NCBI GenBank assembly: GCA_900323505.1
Contig: OOIN01000001.1
Location: 434,001 to 498,000, forward strand
Origin: Ustilago trichophora
Lineage: Eukaryota > Basidiomycota > Ustilaginomycetes > Ustilaginales > Ustilaginaceae
DNA: 64,000 nucleotides
Direction of reading: 5' to 3'
The notes beneath the pieces were generated by a model, which ran no database searches, had not been told where the DNA came from, and saw only the letters and a list, made by a program, of their open reading frames with translations. Position numbers and translations under genes: made by a program. This document shows, in pieces, positions 51,647 to 61,018 of the stretch (position 1 is the first letter of the stretch; every line of letters starts with the position of its first letter).

Positions 51647-54600
51647 ATGCCTTCATCAGCTCCTCCACCCACGAGCCTCGATGGCGCGCATCGCGTCTCG
51701 CCTCGTATGTCATCGGAAGTCGATCTGGCCCTTGAAAGCTCTCAACTACCAACAGCTTCATCTCGAGCTCAGATGGCACAAGAGGCAGACGACGATGCGA
51801 TCTCAGTCAATCTCGGCCAGCCGGCGCTACCTCCTGCTGCTCGCCTACCTATAGACGTGCCTCCTCCTCCGAGACGCCCCACCAACCGCAACGATGCGCT
51901 CATGGACGATGCCTTGCGTTCTCTTCCTCCCGTCGCTGAACGTAACACTCAGCGTCAACGCTCACCCGCCACGGTACTCTCCATGTTCAACACGTCCATA
52001 TTCAACGCTGGCCCATCATCTTCATCTCAACCCGCTCCGTCATTTGCTTATCCTCCGTCACTTCCACCAGCAGCAAAACTGCATCGCACTGCTACCAACG
52101 CCAGCGCTAGAAGTGCCGCTTCCATCGGCTCCGACTCTCAGAGCTCATCACATCATCCCAGGTCCAATGCCCTCAGGTCGGCGTTCGGAAGAGTCGCCAA
52201 TCTCGCCTCTCCTTCCAGTCCAAGGCAAAATCCCACCGCCGTCCCCGAGATCAGGAATCGCAAGTCATCCATATTCCACGCTTCATCAGTTCAGAAGACC
52301 AAAGAGGCACGAAGGGCTGCCCGAAGAGAAGCAAGAAGGGCAGAAAGGCGAGCACGCCGTAAGCGAGAGGCCGATCCCGATCTTGCCGATGACCAACACG
52401 ACCACTTTGAGGATCGTACGCCTGGCACCTCATCTCGTGCTGCACAGCTCGGCGATGAGATCGTAGAGCTCCCAGCAGAACCACCTCTCGACGTCCCTGA
52501 AGCCAACGCACCCACTGCATCTGCTCTGGCTATGGCATCCAAAGTCGGCCGCAAACCCAAGCGCAAACTCCAGTTCGCCCCAGACCAAAGGCGCATCCGC
52601 AAGGTCGACTTGCCTCCAAGCTTCGAAGCCGAAGATACTTACAGAAATCTCGATCAGTACGTTGCTGCTTCTCGTCAGCGTAGGAGGACAACACGAGGCC
52701 GCCGCGCCACGGGCTCACGCAGGTCACGCTCACGATCTCGCCGTGGCTCTCGTAGCAGCCGTGGAAGTCGCAGCTCCGCACGTAGCAGTGCCAACTCGAG
52801 CAGCTCCAGTAGCTCCTCCTCCTCCTCTTCCTCGTCTTCTTCCTCCACCTCCTCTAGCTCTTCTAGCTCCGGCTCGGGGCGTGGTCTCACCATTGCGCGT
52901 CTGCGCGCTTTCTTTGGCGATGGCTCCAGCTCGTCTTCCAGCTCCGACTCGGATAGCTCATCCACCGGCTCGTCTTCTTCGTCGTCTTCCTCCTCCTCCT
53001 CCTCGTCCGACACCGGGTCGACCACCACCGATGGTACCCGATCCAGGCGTTCATCTGCTCGGCGCCTCTCGTTTTCAGGCAGACGTGCCAAGTCGCGCCG
53101 TAGCACACGATCTCGATCTCGTGCTGACCAGTCCGAGGCTAGCGATGTGCCTGGCTCACCCATTTCGAGCCGCAAAGCACCTCTGACACCCTACTTTGCT
53201 CCTCTGGCTGACTTTCCACTCGGTAAAAGAGCTGCTGAGAAGCGCCGTAACAAGAAAGAGAGACAAGCCGCCCGTCGTGCCAAGAAGCGCGAGGCCGAAC
53301 TCATCCGTCAGGGTCGTCTGCCTCCCAAGCCGAGTCGTAGCGCTCGTGCCAAAGCTATGCGCGCCAGGGAACTGGCGGGAGGCGTCACAGAGTATCAGCT
53401 CTTCACTCCCATGCGATTGCCCATGGATTTGGCCTGTACAACCCTCTCCACCTTGGAAGCCACCCCGGATCCGCAGACCGGCACCAATGTTGTGCTCAAG
53501 AAGACCATGAGGACACGCAGCTGGGATCAGGTGCGCAACCAGCTCTACGTGCTCCGAAATTACCTCAGACAAGTCGATAATCAGGGCGGTGATATCGGCA
53601 TTGATCCCCAGGCGGCTTACCCGACCCTTCACCGCCATCATCGCCACGCCGCCAAGACGTCGGCTGAAAGAGCCTCCCATCATCGGGAGAAGAAAGCCCA
53701 CGGCAAGGACGGAAAAGCATCCCACCATCACCGAAGGAGTTTCATCCCCGAACCGGTGCCAGAAGCGGAGCAAGAAGAGCTCGACTTCTTTGACGGCGAT
53801 CTGGCCCTGCCTCCTCCCGCTTTGGATTTGCCTGAGGACTCGACCGAGGCTACCGCCCCTGCCGATGCTGTTGAACCCATGCGCAAATCCATTTCTCAAA
53901 AAGATTCGTCTCCCGACGAGCCGCAGTCATACTTTGATTACGACCAGCACCTGCCAGCGGATCAAGAGGAGGAAGCCCGCACAGGCCGCCATCTCTCCGA
54001 TATGCCTCTGAGTCCCAACTATGCGACCGCATTCGGTAGAGACTTTGGCCGCGCTCCACGCTCCTTCTCGCCCTCAAGAGGTGCCCGACGGAAAGGCACA
54101 GCCAAAGGCGCTGCCACATCGTCCGCTGACCCTCCGTCGGGAGGAAAAGGTAGCAGTCAGACAAGCGCTAACAAGACCCCTTCGGATGGTGACCCGAGCA
54201 AGAACGGCTTTTCTGCGACCGCATCGGACCATTCGGACGAGGGTGCGTGGTGGCTCCACATCCACTGCCCCACCTACAGGGACATGCACGAGATCTCCAA
54301 ACTCTTTCCCATGCATCCGCTTACCGTCGAGGACGTGTTGCAACAGGATCCACGTGAGAAAGTTGACGTCTTTGACCGACTCGGATACTACTTTGTCGTC
54401 ATTCGTGCCATCGATGAGCGATACTTCCGCTACACGTCTACGACGACGAAAAGCTCGCCAAACTCGCCCAACTTTTCCGGGTCTAGTTCTTCCAATGGAA
54501 CTGTCAACGGCGATGCCGAGACAAAGCTTAGGAAGGAAGAGGACGACGGGCAGGACTCGAAAGAGGAGAGCTTCGAGATGCGCGATCTAGGTGCACAGGC

Positions 54601-55960
54601 TGCGTCAGACGAGAAGGGTTCGCATTCGAAGCTGCACCAGGACGGCCACAATACGCGTCTGGCAGCTCCAGCTCGTACCGGCAAAGGTCGAGTCGAGATT
54701 GTCGAAGGGATCGGAGGCAAAGAGGGTCTGGAAGGTGTCAGTGTGGGTGCCAACAATCTTTACCTTCTGGTCTTCTCTCATGGTGTGATTTCGTTCGCCT
54801 TCGAGGATGTCAGCAAGCACATCGATCGAGTGGCTGCGCGTCTACTAGAGATCACACGACCGGTCGAGTTGACTGCCGACTGGATTGCGCACGATCTCTA
54901 CGACTCTGTGGTCGACGCCTTCTTCCCACTCATCTCGTTCGTGCAGTCGGAAGTAGTCGAAGTGGAAGAGCTTGCCAGCGAGCCGGTGAGCAGCAGCTCG
55001 CGTCGCAACAAGAACAACTTTGCGCCCAAGCAGCGGCGTCAAAGGGCGTTGCTCGGCTCCAACCCAGAAGGCCGGCTGATCAGCGTCGAACCCGTCTCGG
55101 CCATGTCCTCGCCCACATCATCCGAGGTGGAGAAGAGGACGCCGATGCTCGAAGTTCGACGTCTCAAGACCGTTCGTGCCTTCCGTCCTCTCCCCGTACT
55201 GAGGTTAGGCGATCGCATCTTTGATCGACTACCTCGCTTCCTGGTCAAGCAAAAGCAAAAAGTCACCATCTCTCGTCTACCCGAATGGGAGTTCAAAGAT
55301 GCCCTCGAAGCCGAGATGCGACGCACAGCAGCCGAGATCGACGAAGCCAGCAATTCCGTCTTTGACACGCAAGCCGCAGCTGATCAGAGTATCATGTTGC
55401 ACCGCATCGCCGATACGCGCAAGATCGTCACGGGTCTGTCGCGCCTTCTCGGTCCCAAGAACGATGCTGTCAAAGGTCTCCGAAAGCGACTTGCCGATAT
55501 GCAGCAATTGCAACGACGTCAAGAAGCGCTTCGTCGAATCGGCGGTAATGCACGAAACATGCTCGCCCGTACCGAAGTCTCGATGTACATGTCGGATGTC
55601 CACGACCACATCATTTCCATGCTCAACCAGCTCAACTCTGGCGAAGGTCGTCTATCGGAAATCCACCATACCTACCTTGCCCAGATCACCATCGAGAACA
55701 GGAAGTTCAGACAGGGCGCAGATTCAGCCATTCTCTTCCTCGCAAGCGTCGGATCGGCCGTCTTTGTCATTGTCTTTATCACCTCGATCTTCTCGGTCAA
55801 CGTCAATCGACCAGGGAACGTGATCGAGTCGAGCAACCATGGGTGGTTCATCGGCGTCTGTTGTGCCGCATTGTGCGTCCCACCGTCGATCTACATGTTT
55901 GTTCAACTGCTGTATAAGCAGAGTAAGAGGAGGCTCGCTAAGAAACGTGCCGCTCGTTAA
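51647..55960 (+). CDS. CorA-like divalent metal ion transporter with long disordered N-terminus
   Basis: A 1437-residue intronless protein. The first ~850 residues are Ser/Arg-rich and low complexity, including basic RRxRR blocks and long Ser runs. The CorA domain starts at WWLHIHCPTYRDMHEISKLF, then LTVEDVLQQDPREKVDVFDRLGYYFVVIRAI. It continues with a helical region (LVFSHGVISFAFEDVSKHIDRVAARLLE) and ends with two transmembrane segments (SAILFLASVGSAVFVIVFITSIF and WFIGVCCAALCVPPSIYMFVQLLY). The signature G-M-N after TM1 reads S-V-N here (SVNVNRPG). Family members are pentameric Mg2+ channels. Location is probably plasma or vacuolar membrane. The altered filter may change ion choice or reflect a fungal subfamily. 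Confidence 0.85.
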   Translation: MPSSAPPPTSLDGAHRVSPRMSSEVDLALESSQLPTASSRAQMAQEADDDAISVNLGQPALPPAARLPIDVPPPPRRPTNRNDALMDDALRSLPPVAERNTQRQRSPATVLSMFNTSIFNAGPSSSSQPAPSFAYPPSLPPAAKLHRTATNASARSAASIGSDSQSSSHHPRSNALRSAFGRVANLASPSSPRQNPTAVPEIRNRKSSIFHASSVQKTKEARRAARREARRAERRARRKREADPDLADDQHDHFEDRTPGTSSRAAQLGDEIVELPAEPPLDVPEANAPTASALAMASKVGRKPKRKLQFAPDQRRIRKVDLPPSFEAEDTYRNLDQYVAASRQRRRTTRGRRATGSRRSRSRSRRGSRSSRGSRSSARSSANSSSSSSSSSSSSSSSSSTSSSSSSSGSGRGLTIARLRAFFGDGSSSSSSSDSDSSSTGSSSSSSSSSSSSSDTGSTTTDGTRSRRSSARRLSFSGRRAKSRRSTRSRSRADQSEASDVPGSPISSRKAPLTPYFAPLADFPLGKRAAEKRRNKKERQAARRAKKREAELIRQGRLPPKPSRSARAKAMRARELAGGVTEYQLFTPMRLPMDLACTTLSTLEATPDPQTGTNVVLKKTMRTRSWDQVRNQLYVLRNYLRQVDNQGGDIGIDPQAAYPTLHRHHRHAAKTSAERASHHREKKAHGKDGKASHHHRRSFIPEPVPEAEQEELDFFDGDLALPPPALDLPEDSTEATAPADAVEPMRKSISQKDSSPDEPQSYFDYDQHLPADQEEEARTGRHLSDMPLSPNYATAFGRDFGRAPRSFSPSRGARRKGTAKGAATSSADPPSGGKGSSQTSANKTPSDGDPSKNGFSATASDHSDEGAWWLHIHCPTYRDMHEISKLFPMHPLTVEDVLQQDPREKVDVFDRLGYYFVVIRAIDERYFRYTSTTTKSSPNSPNFSGSSSSNGTVNGDAETKLRKEEDDGQDSKEESFEMRDLGAQAASDEKGSHSKLHQDGHNTRLAAPARTGKGRVEIVEGIGGKEGLEGVSVGANNLYLLVFSHGVISFAFEDVSKHIDRVAARLLEITRPVELTADWIAHDLYDSVVDAFFPLISFVQSEVVEVEELASEPVSSSSRRNKNNFAPKQRRQRALLGSNPEGRLISVEPVSAMSSPTSSEVEKRTPMLEVRRLKTVRAFRPLPVLRLGDRIFDRLPRFLVKQKQKVTISRLPEWEFKDALEAEMRRTAAEIDEASNSVFDTQAAADQSIMLHRIADTRKIVTGLSRLLGPKNDAVKGLRKRLADMQQLQRRQEALRRIGGNARNMLARTEVSMYMSDVHDHIISMLNQLNSGEGRLSEIHHTYLAQITIENRKFRQGADSAILFLASVGSAVFVIVFITSIFSVNVNRPGNVIESSNHGWFIGVCCAALCVPPSIYMFVQLLYKQSKRRLAKKRAAR

Positions 55961-56489: not shown

Positions 56490-57079
56490 TCACATCTGGA
56501 ACTTGGCAGCGATGAAGGGAAGGGAGAAGCCAAAGACGAGGAAGGTGGTGAGGCCGACGGCAACGGGGACCTTGCGGGTGGGGCCGGAGGGGAAGGGGAC
56601 TGTTTTTTTTGCGTTGAGGAAGATGGTCGAATGCGTCAAGCTTTGATTGTTAGCATGTTTGCTCTGCTCTGGAATGAGATGGCGGTTCTGCAGCGTTTCG
56701 GAGTGAATGGATACTTACGAGACTGAACAAGAAGAATCCGAAACCGATGGCAGCAGCATGAGTCGTTGGGAGTATTGAAAGCAAAGTACCAAGATTCCAA
56801 GTCAGTAACAATTCAACTAGTTGAACAGCAATTCTCCACAGCACGATCTTCTAAACCCCTATCGAGCGTTACGACTCCATAGCAGCTCCAAGGTTGGGGA
56901 GATCTTAGCAATGCAGAGAAAGCCATGATTCCGCTAGAAGGTCGGGGGAGGTTCGGGGGATGGAAAAAACTCACGGTCTCGTGCGTGTTCTCGACGTGCA
57001 AGTTTCGGCGGAGGAGAGGCTGCTGCTGACGAAGAGCAGTGCGGGCGGAGCGAACGGTCTGACGAGCGAGGATGGACAT
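56490..57079 (-). CDS. COX8: Cytochrome c oxidase subunit VIIc (yeast Cox8), with a 4-nt microexon
   Basis: Exons (minus strand) 57079-56975, 56719-56722 (4 nt, TCTC) and 56599-56490, 72 residues. Exon 1 gives the mitochondrial leader RQTVRSARTALRQQQPLLRR and the conserved HVENTHET. Exon 3 gives PFPSGPTRKVPVAVG and the single transmembrane helix TTFLVFGFSLPFIAAKFQM. Joining exon 1 directly to exon 3 is out of phase; adding TCTC restores the frame and creates the conserved S-L-P-F. Both introns have good signals: GTGAGT...TTGTTCAG (252 nt) and GTAAGT, branch CTAAC (56649-56653), AACAG (119 nt). The stop is TGA 56490-56492; a GTGAGT overlaps the ATG-TGA end, so a further 3' intron is possible. 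It is a structural subunit of complex IV. Confidence 0.82.
56719..56722 (-). other. 4-nt microexon of COX7C/Cox8
   Basis: Minus-strand context is ...TTCTTCTTGTTCAG|TCTC|GTAAGTATCC. A strong pyrimidine tract and CAG acceptor lie directly before it and a consensus donor directly after it. Its length, 1 modulo 3, is exactly what the flanking exons need. Confidence 0.75.
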
Positions 57080-57554: not shown

Positions 57555-58919
57555 ATGGCGGGCTCCGGCGAACCCTCGACCTCCGCCTCCTCGGCAGGAG
57601 GCAGTGGCGACAAGCCAGCCTCCGGCTCCTTCAAGCACATCGGCAACAAGATGAAGCGCACGGAGCTCTACCGCAAGTACAAAGCCGAGAAGCGCAAAGC
57701 CAAATTCGCCCGACGATCAGCACAGGCCAAGGAGGAACGTGGAGAAGACGGTGCAGCCAAGAAAGCCGCCCGTTTGGCCGCCAACAAGACGAGGACGATT
57801 GAGAATACGCGAGATTTTAACCCGACCATCATCAACGCTCCCAACACGCACGAAGGGCCTGGGCCGAGCAATCTCAAGAAGACATCCGGAAACAAGGGCG
57901 ATGATGCAGAGGAAGGAGACGACAGCGATGAAGAGCAGATGGTGGAGGAGGAGCAGGAGGCAGCGGAAGAAATCGACCAGGATGAGGATCCAAGTGCACC
58001 CCCTGCGATCTTGATCACCACTTCGATGCCCTCTTCTTCGACCTCTCCGCATTTGGAGTCTCTCAACGCGCGGTCGCATCCTTCAGAGAGAACGAGGGAA
58101 TTCGTCGACGAACTACTCTCCGTCTTCCCCGGTGCCGAGTATCGCTCTCGATCCAAAGCGCAAGGTGTTGGTCTTGGCAAGATTTGCGGCTGGGCACGCC
58201 AACGTCGCTACGATGCCCTTCTCGTAGTCAACGAATCGCGCAAACAACCTTTCGCCCTCACCGTCATCTCGCTCCCCCACGGTCCCACCGCATTCTTCCG
58301 CCTTACATCCATCAGCACCGGCGCCGAGATCTACGGTAAAGCGCGCCCTACTCCGCACACGCCCGAGCTCATCCTCAACAACTTCACCACCGTTCTCGGT
58401 CACCGGGTTGGAAAGGTGCTGCAGAACCTCTTCCCCAAAATCCCGCAATTGGAAGGAAGACAGGTGGTAACATGTCACAACCAACGAGACTACATTTTCT
58501 TCCGAAGACACCGATACATGTTCAAGAGTGATCAAAAGACGGCGTTGCAAGAGATCGGACCTAGATTCACGCTCAAGCTGCATTCGTTGAAGGAAAGTCT
58601 GCCCAAAGGTGCCGGAGTGTGGGATGGAAAGTACTCGGAAGAGTATGCCGAGTTGGAACCGGAGGAGTTGGAAGCGTTGCAGAGACAGGCGGATGGCACT
58701 CGGGACGATCAGGAAGAGGCAGCAGCTGCGGCGGTCGAGCAGGAGGATGCGATGCAACAAGATGCACAGGTACAGACAAGCAGCAGTGCGAAAACGGCAA
58801 AGAAGGCCACCGAAACGTCCAACAAGAAAAAACGCCAGCGCGGAGAGGAAGAAACTACAGGTCTCGACTTCCAATGGAAGCCAAAGATGAGCGTATCGAG
58901 GCGCAACTTTTACCTCTAG
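57555..58919 (+). CDS. RPF1: Brix-domain ribosome production factor 1 (Rpf1)
   Basis: A 454-residue intronless protein from ATG 57555. A basic N-terminus (IGNKMKRTELYRKYKAEKRKAK) precedes an acidic linker with EEGDDSDEEQMVEEEQEAAEE. The Brix domain then begins at ILITTSMPSS and includes RTREFVDELLSVFPGAEYRSR, PFALTVISLPHGPTAFFRL and the terminal RNA-binding part NQRDYIFFRRHRYMF with IGPRFTLKL. It ends WKPKMSVSRRNFYL, a typical Brix-family C-terminus. Rpf1 is nucleolar and needed for 27S pre-rRNA processing in large ribosomal subunit assembly. Confidence 0.95.
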   Translation: MAGSGEPSTSASSAGGSGDKPASGSFKHIGNKMKRTELYRKYKAEKRKAKFARRSAQAKEERGEDGAAKKAARLAANKTRTIENTRDFNPTIINAPNTHEGPGPSNLKKTSGNKGDDAEEGDDSDEEQMVEEEQEAAEEIDQDEDPSAPPAILITTSMPSSSTSPHLESLNARSHPSERTREFVDELLSVFPGAEYRSRSKAQGVGLGKICGWARQRRYDALLVVNESRKQPFALTVISLPHGPTAFFRLTSISTGAEIYGKARPTPHTPELILNNFTTVLGHRVGKVLQNLFPKIPQLEGRQVVTCHNQRDYIFFRRHRYMFKSDQKTALQEIGPRFTLKLHSLKESLPKGAGVWDGKYSEEYAELEPEELEALQRQADGTRDDQEEAAAAAVEQEDAMQQDAQVQTSSSAKTAKKATETSNKKKRQRGEEETTGLDFQWKPKMSVSRRNFYL

Positions 58920-59365: not shown

Positions 59366-61018
59366 ATGAACGCACAGCTCCTCAACCCATTTAGCATCGA
59401 CATACCGGACACCGTTTCCACCACGCTCTCTTCGGCCGAATGCAGCGTTCTCTCCTTCAACCATGGATTTTCCAACCTCGCCGGCCAGTATCTTGCCATA
59501 GGCCGTTCCGACGGATACATTACGATTTGGGATATCGAAACCAAATCCGTCCTTCGATTGCTCGGCGGTCATGTACGACCTGTAACGTGCCTGGCGTGGA
59601 GTAGCTACAACAGGTATCTGGCGAGCTGTGCGGGCGATTGGAACGTTGTCATTTGGGATTTGGCGGCCAAGAGTGTTGCAGCTCCAAGTGTAAGAGACGG
59701 AGAAAGGGGGAGAGGTGGGGATGAGGGGGAGGACGGGGAGGAAGGAGAAGGGGAGATGGATCCAAGACTGCCTTTTGCTACCGAACGTAAGGCGACGATA
59801 CGTTTCGACTGTCCTGTGGTTTCGGTTCAGTTTGCTCCTGGGAACAGCAAACGCCTAGTGGTGGTGTTGGCTTCTAATGAGGCATACCTTATCGATATCT
59901 CCCAAAAGGTTCTTATACGTCGCCGGCGGAACGCTTCTTCTTCCAGCACACCGCTGTTCGAAGTGGAAGATCTCATCCCTTCCCCGCAACGCATTCCTCT
60001 TCTCGCCACCTCGCTCAACCAAGACTCGGACGTAGCCACGCCCCAACCGGGAATCACAGCGGCCCGATTCACCCCCGATTCGCGCCACATCTTGGCCGGA
60101 ACCACCAAAGGAACTCTTCTCATCTTCAACTCCTCCACAGGACGTCTCCTCACCACCTCTTCGGTACTAGCTACAACATCAGCCGTGAAAGAGCTATCGT
60201 TTGACACGGCCGGAAAGTTCGCGGTTGTAAACTGCAACGATCGATCGCTCCGAATCGTTTCCATAGCTTCACCATTGCAACTTACACAGCTGCACAAAGT
60301 GCAAGACATGATCCAACGTACACCGTGGGTGGATGCATCATTCACCCCTTCTTCCGACTACATTTTCGCCGGCGCTTCGCACAAAGCCGCGCACAACGTC
60401 TACATCTGGGACCGCACCTCGGGCACTCTTTCCAAGATCCTCGAGGGACCCAAGGACTGGGTGGTGCGGGTGGATTGGCATCCGACGAGACCGATGGTGG
60501 CCAGTGTGAGTAATACGGGATCGGTGTATGTCTGGTTTAGCCCAAGCGAGGAGATCTGGAGTGCATATGCTCCGGGGTTTGAAGAGTTGGAGGAGAACAT
60601 CGAGTATGAAGAGCGAGAGGATGAGTTTGATTTTTCCCACGAAGGGGAGGAAGAGGGAAGGAGGAGGAGGGGGGAGGTTGAAGCGGCTGATGTGAGAGTA
60701 ACGGGTGGAGAGGAAGGAAGAAGGTTGGTGGTGAAACAGGGTGATGAGGGTGTGGGTGCTGGGAGGGTGTGGGAGCTGCTAGGCTTGGAAGAGGGGGAGA
60801 AGAATAGATTGGAGGGGAGGAGGTTTTGGTTGGCATTGCAGCGGATCGAAGGCGAATTGTTGCAGTTGAGTAGCGATTCAGGTTGGAATAAAGCAGAAGG
60901 GAAGGATGAAGTGAGAGAATTGCAATATACGCTAAAGGACGACGATACCAGTGACGCTTTTGTCATTCCTCCTCGTTTAGAGGTCGACTATTCGGATTTC
61001 CACGATGACCATCTTTGA
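59366..61018 (+). CDS. SWD1: COMPASS subunit Swd1/RbBP5, WD40 protein
   Basis: ATG 59366 gives MNAQLLNPF, the conserved RbBP5 start; 550 residues. WD40 blades follow: LAIGRSDGYITIWDIET, GGHVRPVTCLAWSSYNRYLASCAGDWNVVIWDL, VVSVQFAPGNSKRLVVVLAS, AARFTPDSRHILAGTTKGTLLIF, ELSFDTAGKFAVVNCNDRSLRI and VRVDWHPTRPMVASVSNTGSVYVW. A Gly/Glu-rich insertion lies between the blades near residue 115-135. The C-terminal tail contains FEELEENIEYEEREDEFD, the acidic hinge that contacts Ash2 and nucleosomes, and LEVDYSDFHDDHL. The complex methylates histone H3 Lys4. Confidence 0.94.
   Translation: MNAQLLNPFSIDIPDTVSTTLSSAECSVLSFNHGFSNLAGQYLAIGRSDGYITIWDIETKSVLRLLGGHVRPVTCLAWSSYNRYLASCAGDWNVVIWDLAAKSVAAPSVRDGERGRGGDEGEDGEEGEGEMDPRLPFATERKATIRFDCPVVSVQFAPGNSKRLVVVLASNEAYLIDISQKVLIRRRRNASSSSTPLFEVEDLIPSPQRIPLLATSLNQDSDVATPQPGITAARFTPDSRHILAGTTKGTLLIFNSSTGRLLTTSSVLATTSAVKELSFDTAGKFAVVNCNDRSLRIVSIASPLQLTQLHKVQDMIQRTPWVDASFTPSSDYIFAGASHKAAHNVYIWDRTSGTLSKILEGPKDWVVRVDWHPTRPMVASVSNTGSVYVWFSPSEEIWSAYAPGFEELEENIEYEEREDEFDFSHEGEEEGRRRRGEVEAADVRVTGGEEGRRLVVKQGDEGVGAGRVWELLGLEEGEKNRLEGRRFWLALQRIEGELLQLSSDSGWNKAEGKDEVRELQYTLKDDDTSDAFVIPPRLEVDYSDFHDDHL

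Follow-up and report, generated by a model that had tools for sequence, protein, structure and literature searches.

A four-nucleotide exon is probably spliced into the COX7C/Cox8 gene of Ustilago trichophora

The COX7C/Cox8 gene on the minus strand of a 64,000-nt stretch of the Ustilago trichophora genome (hereafter the window, meaning the whole stretch that was analysed) very probably contains a constitutive exon of only four nucleotides, TCTC, whose two flanking introns would be removed one at a time; we put the probability of this reading at about 0.9. As expected of a microexon, an internal exon no longer than about 30 nt, TCTC is internal, is flanked by AG and GT, and is required for the reading frame. 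Exons of this kind are an extreme of known gene structure, and automatic annotation often errs on them. The gene product is a small subunit of cytochrome c oxidase, known as COX7C in animals and as Cox8 in yeast.

The gene consists of four exons (Table 1) and, spliced with TCTC, codes for 77 amino acids. A sequence-only reading of this DNA had proposed that exon 1 ends in phase 0 after HVENTHET at a GTGAGT donor, that TTCAG, TCTC and GTAAGT follow one another downstream, and that the membrane-domain exon is one base short of the phase required, and all of these were borne out, with the TTCAG-TCTC-GTAAGT string lying at 56727-56713. TCTC also restores the frame as that reading held, the translation (HETSLPFPSGPTRK...) passing through HETSLPF, and the frame is lost without it. 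Exons 1 to 3 of the proposed gene stand, but not its end near 56490 (Q-M-stop), as coding continues through intron 3 into exon 4, whose product has the same C-terminal end as the deposited orthologue P0001. The pyrimidine tract before TTCAG, which had been called strong, is moderate (13 of 17 positions, and 12 of 17 in the second gene copy described below).

The product predicted with the microexon matches the Pfam family PF02935 (COX7C/Cox8) at 45.7 bits over residues 11-74, against a cut-off of 25, and it matches the solved yeast Cox8 (6giq chain h) with an E value of 6.8e-5, four further sequences being weak matches (E 0.013 to 0.1). Judged by this product, the gene is a member of the COX7C/Cox8 family. 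A PF02935 match at 26.3 bits on contig C23, the third in the genome, comes from a low-complexity, phenylalanine-rich reading and was not counted as a gene copy. On the plus strand, an ORF of 454 aa (57555-58919), presumably a Brix-domain ribosome factor resembling RPF1, starts divergently about 475 bases upstream of the Cox8 gene ATG, and an ORF of 1437 aa (51647-55960), which we take to resemble a CorA-type transporter, converges on the 3' end of the Cox8 gene.

Table 1. Features of the predicted Cox8 gene in the window
Feature	Position	Strand	Description
Exon 1 (coding part)	57079-56975	minus	105 nt, phase 0; ends HVENTHET, donor GTGAGT
Intron 1	56723..56974	minus	252 nt, GTGAGT...TTCAG
Donor of exon 1, GTGAGT	56969..56974	minus	inner GT at 56970-56969 is the rival +4 donor GTTTTT (giving VIPF)
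Branch-like site TACTGACT	56800..56807	minus	A at 56802, lying 79 nt upstream of the 3' end of intron 1
Candidate microexon TCTC	56722-56719	minus	codon TCT plus first base of CTC: S-L
Intron 2	56600..56718	minus	119 nt, GTAAGT...AACAG; branch-like TGCTAACA, A at 56650
Exon 3, membrane domain	56599-56494	minus	106 nt; starts after AAAACAG, one extra base needed
Intron 3	56493-56398	minus	96 nt, GTGAGT...TGCAG
Exon 4 (coding part)	56397-56379	minus	19 nt including stop TAA; ends IAKASW

The window, which lies on contig C1, has a collinear second copy on contig C2 (about 445394-502087; aligned blocks totalling 55.6 kb, 83.5% identical), and this contains a second Cox8 gene. Exon 1 is identical at 102 of 105 positions (97%), and introns 1, 2 and 3 at 79%, 85% and 87%, with indels; exon 3 (100/105) and intron 3 (83/95) were counted with the exon 3 boundary of C2 one base off. 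The string AG-TCTC-GTAAGT is the same in both copies, while the preceding base is not (TTCAG in C1, TTTAG in C2). Twelve unchanged bases are not rare in themselves in introns that are about 80% identical; their weight is that they cover both splice sites and that the frame is kept. The C2 gene spliced with TCTC encodes exactly the deposited protein P0001, and the two 234-nt coding sequences have 10 base differences, of which 9 are silent. In the 38.8 Mb searched, TTYAGTCTCGTAAGT has two matches, both at the two Cox8 gene copies. An intron-less genomic copy, which would serve as a natural cDNA, was also sought, and the joined junction had no match in the genome with 3 mismatches allowed. A hydrophobic reading in another frame just upstream of TCTC (HAAAIGFGFFLFSL) was dropped because C2 has a 13-nt insertion at that spot. 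The genome as searched comprises 38.8 Mb in 45 contigs, and 20.7 Mb is given both for U. trichophora RK089 (PMC4966473) and for strain NBRC 100157 (PMC8951962). Together with the collinear copy, this size looks like two diverged parental genomes, in a hybrid or a mixed assembly. Used as a copy count, a search for RNA-polymerase families gave five matches and no clean doubling, two of the five forming a C3/C4 pair at near-equal positions.

We enumerated the splice models that lead from exon 1 to the PF codons of exon 3, allowing GT donors starting 60 nt upstream of the 3' end of exon 1, AG acceptors, introns of at least 35 nt and inner exons of up to 120 nt. The frame is kept by 32 models with one intron and 349 with two in the window copy, and by 2 and 37, respectively, in C2. 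Two-intron models in which both donors are good number two in the window copy, both containing TCTC and one of them joining it to another acceptor, and one in C2, which joins TCTC to the AACAG acceptor. In the window copy, three one-intron models that keep the GTGAGT donor and take an acceptor 66, 69 or 90 nt upstream of the PF codons are open, so the statement of the sequence-only reading that larger exons all hit stops or the wrong phase is wrong for this copy. If exon 3 did begin at one of these upstream acceptors, the protein would gain 20-30 residues, and a comparable insertion is seen in P0034, a Tilletia controversa model. However, C2 keeps none of them open; its remaining one-intron models have only GTCAGC or GTTTTT as donor. 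Such an insertion is also missing from most deposited relatives for which an alignment or a score was made. We therefore give a longer exon 3 next to no credence.

Deposited proteins differ from one another at exactly this position. Three protein searches gave 44 proteins, and the two residues before PF were read by script in 39 of them; P0019-P0023, which are fragments or frame-shifted models, were left unscored, and P0028 was read by hand after the script had picked a wrong PF. One scan of a viral collection gave no relative. The first search yielded 16 named records (P0001-P0015 and P0019), of which eight have SL (P0001-P0005, P0007, P0010 and P0015), three VI (P0006, P0011 and P0012), two TV (P0008 and P0009), and three are otherwise different (P0013, P0014 and P0019). 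Thus SL is already present in half of the named smut records, P0001 alone having been compared with DNA. The Melanopsichium models have TV (P0009) and AV (P0014). The six Tilletia records are divided into AL (two) and VI, VM, EL and TV (one each), EL being that of T. horrida (P0033); the T. caries and T. controversa models (P0027 and P0030) are identical except for AL versus VI. Because the Tilletia records are split in the same way, the predicted microexon may be older than Ustilago. P0008, the deposited model of the window copy, reads HETTVPF and is without the last exon, whereas P0001, that of the C2 copy, includes both the microexon residues and the final exon; one gene in one genome has thus been given two conflicting models. 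As a single-intron model, the TVPF of P0008 was rejected, the sole option starting with GT having an intron that ends in AA.

Four unnamed ORFs (P0016, P0017, P0028 and P0043) run from Q, as encoded by a CAG-like codon, straight into SLPF or ALPF. From their sources, they seem to cross the microexon position unspliced. P0016 and P0022, each from a 2,333-base contig, look like two exons of one gene in which intron 1 is kept and introns 2 and 3 are absent. The claim that a four-nucleotide exon is needed for the COX7C/Cox8 protein is thus supported by the C2 copy, by P0001, by the restriction of TTYAGTCTCGTAAGT to these two genes in the genome search, and by these SL and AL ORFs.

The deposited VI models correspond to a gene with no microexon, in which the inner GT of the exon 1 donor (GTGA/GTTTTT) joins exon 3 directly to give HETVIPF and the TTCAG-TCTC-GTAAGT string is an intronic coincidence. 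This frame is open in both copies, and it has been deposited for Sporisorium reilianum f. sp. reilianum (P0006), Ustilago sp. UG-2017a (P0011) and U. hordei (P0012). Protein likeness alone does not decide the matter, because the VIPF form scores 43.9 bits against Pfam, close to the 45.7 bits of the SL form, and because the second residue of this pair is I in yeast Cox8 (ENIPF). The shifted donor, however, is poor, with GTTTTT agreeing at one of the four positions of RAGT, and P0006 differs from P0005, also from S. reilianum, solely in having VI for SL. Moreover, other records that read through the start of the intron vary at the inner GT (VSI in P0013, VSG in P0020, VSV in P0022 and VSH in P0028), V-I is absent from all four unnamed ORFs that continue directly into the SL or AL position, and the AG-TCTC-GTAAGT of both copies is left unexplained. 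A gene that does without TCTC in this way is therefore quite improbable.

Chance was estimated from 20,000 dinucleotide shuffles of the 375-nt interval, the figures serving as guides since the idea of a microexon preceded the test. Of the shuffles, 31 contained YAG-N4-GTRAGT, 165 some frame-restoring exon no longer than 28 nt, and 2 a 4-nt exon yielding [SAN][LM]PF. Over the window as a whole, the bare pattern occurs about as often as chance predicts, with 2 found and 1.65 expected. The second CAG-N4-GTAAGT of the window (CAGCTGTGTAAGT) lies at 60280-60292 on the minus strand. Other AG-N-GT sites were compared with C2 under the requirement of whole-string identity, and this comparison says little about those sites because the TCTC site itself fails it, the base before its AG being different. 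The evidential weight rests on position, frame and comparison rather than on the bare pattern count.

The acceptor of the putative microexon, TTYAG, is the first AG downstream of TACTGAC in both copies. The AG-free runs are 92 and 102 nt in the two copies, lengths that 65 and 63 of 5000 shuffles attained, although the copies are not independent. In intron 1 the candidate branch site lies 79 and 89 nt upstream of the acceptor in the two copies; the corresponding distances are 50 and 46 nt in intron 2, and 38 and 47 nt in intron 3. The choice of TACTGAC as the branch site of intron 1 is a guess, and a nearer CGAC, at 41 and 54 nt, is possible. A zero-length recursive splice site was rejected, as four bases required for the frame lie between AG and GT.

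Two flanking introns that are recognised separately and removed successively would account for the arrangement. We infer successive removal because spliceosomes assembled at the two ends of a four-base exon would collide. Our guess is that intron 1 usually goes first, since it is transcribed first, which would leave a 109-nt exon ending in ACCTCTC followed by GTAAGT; the reverse order would work too. Counting against this order, the second intron of potato invertase is removed before the first (PMC4674806), and counting against the mode, human MPC1 is said to rely on exon definition (PMC9929638). The distant branch site (79 and 89 nt, compared with 38-50 nt elsewhere in the gene) may leave room for U1 at the donor. 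As for origin, the microexon was probably created by the gain of an intron four bases into the exon that follows intron 1; alternatively, that intron may have been lost in the relatives that seem to be without it.

Two further possibilities concern how faithfully TCTC is included. The exon may be real but regulated, with skipping or retention tuning the amount of the Cox8 subunit. The sequence-only reading had raised such a possible control point, a suggestion that gained no support in the analysis. The skipped form would yield a frame-shifted product of 88 aa running beyond the normal stop, a 76-residue part of which matched no Pfam family when scanned, and a 20-nt microexon switch is described in Trichoderma (PMC11121469). 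Against regulation, the splice signals flanking TCTC are strong and ordinary on both sides, and the human MPC1 study describes microexons of five genes, shorter than 10 bp and not a multiple of three, as constitutive in the final mRNA, with four of the five incompletely included in HeLa reporters (PMC9929638). We consider regulation slightly less probable again than the shifted donor. The second possibility is that the GT at +4 in every GTRAGT donor offers a spare route, so that two in-frame subunits, with S-L-P-F and V-I-P-F, would be made if both routes were used. Four nucleotides is exactly the length whose skipping a donor shift of +4 repairs. Such a route is a speculation to which we give a low probability; if it were true, the VI models on deposit would reflect a genuine minor isoform, the backup would hold the exon length at four, and the AL/VI split between the Tilletia models P0027 and P0030 would make the arrangement old in these fungi.

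A constitutive TCTC exon has several counterparts in the passages of earlier papers that we compared. The 4-bp microexon of human MPC1 likewise belongs to a mitochondrial protein, is constitutive in that study, and has branch points unusually far upstream (-63 and -68), a placement that its authors take to relieve crowding and that the candidate branch site here shares; unlike Cox8, it is a different gene with introns of more than 12 and 3 kb, compared with 252 and 119 nt, for which exon definition was argued and minigenes were tested (PMC9929638). Fusarium CYP621A is also a nuclear fungal gene whose exon is required for the frame and a conserved motif, and the exon was likewise found by comparison, with relatives including an intron-less gene, but it is 1 nt long, belongs to another gene family and an ascomycete, and is confirmed by SRA transcript reads (PMC12940212). 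In plant APC11 and VPS55, constitutive ultra-short exons are usually misannotated, relatives with intron loss exist and stepwise splicing has been proposed, as here, whereas these exons are of 1 nt, in plants, and confirmed by RT-PCR (PMC4674806, PMC8831610). The P450 genes of Phanerochaete chrysosporium, nuclear genes of a basidiomycete, have very short exons as well, with a minimum of 6 bp, but these are longer than 4 nt, in another family, and a link to alternative splicing was suggested for them (PMC1184071). Among the matches listed in the microexon literature on smuts, basidiomycetes and cytochrome oxidase, a body that mostly leaves subscription papers outside, the microexon described here is unreported. 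Ultra-short exons are thus already known, and the 4-nt exon of Cox8 would add a member to them, with good evidence from sequence.

The proposed gene structure bears both on annotation and on splicing. The S-L or A-L pair is missed in 8 of the 16 named records and in 4 of the 6 Tilletia records, P0008 of the window copy included, which points to a recurrent annotation fault. A four-nucleotide exon in a core respiratory gene would be a strict natural test of how nearly touching introns are spliced in a fungus with short introns.
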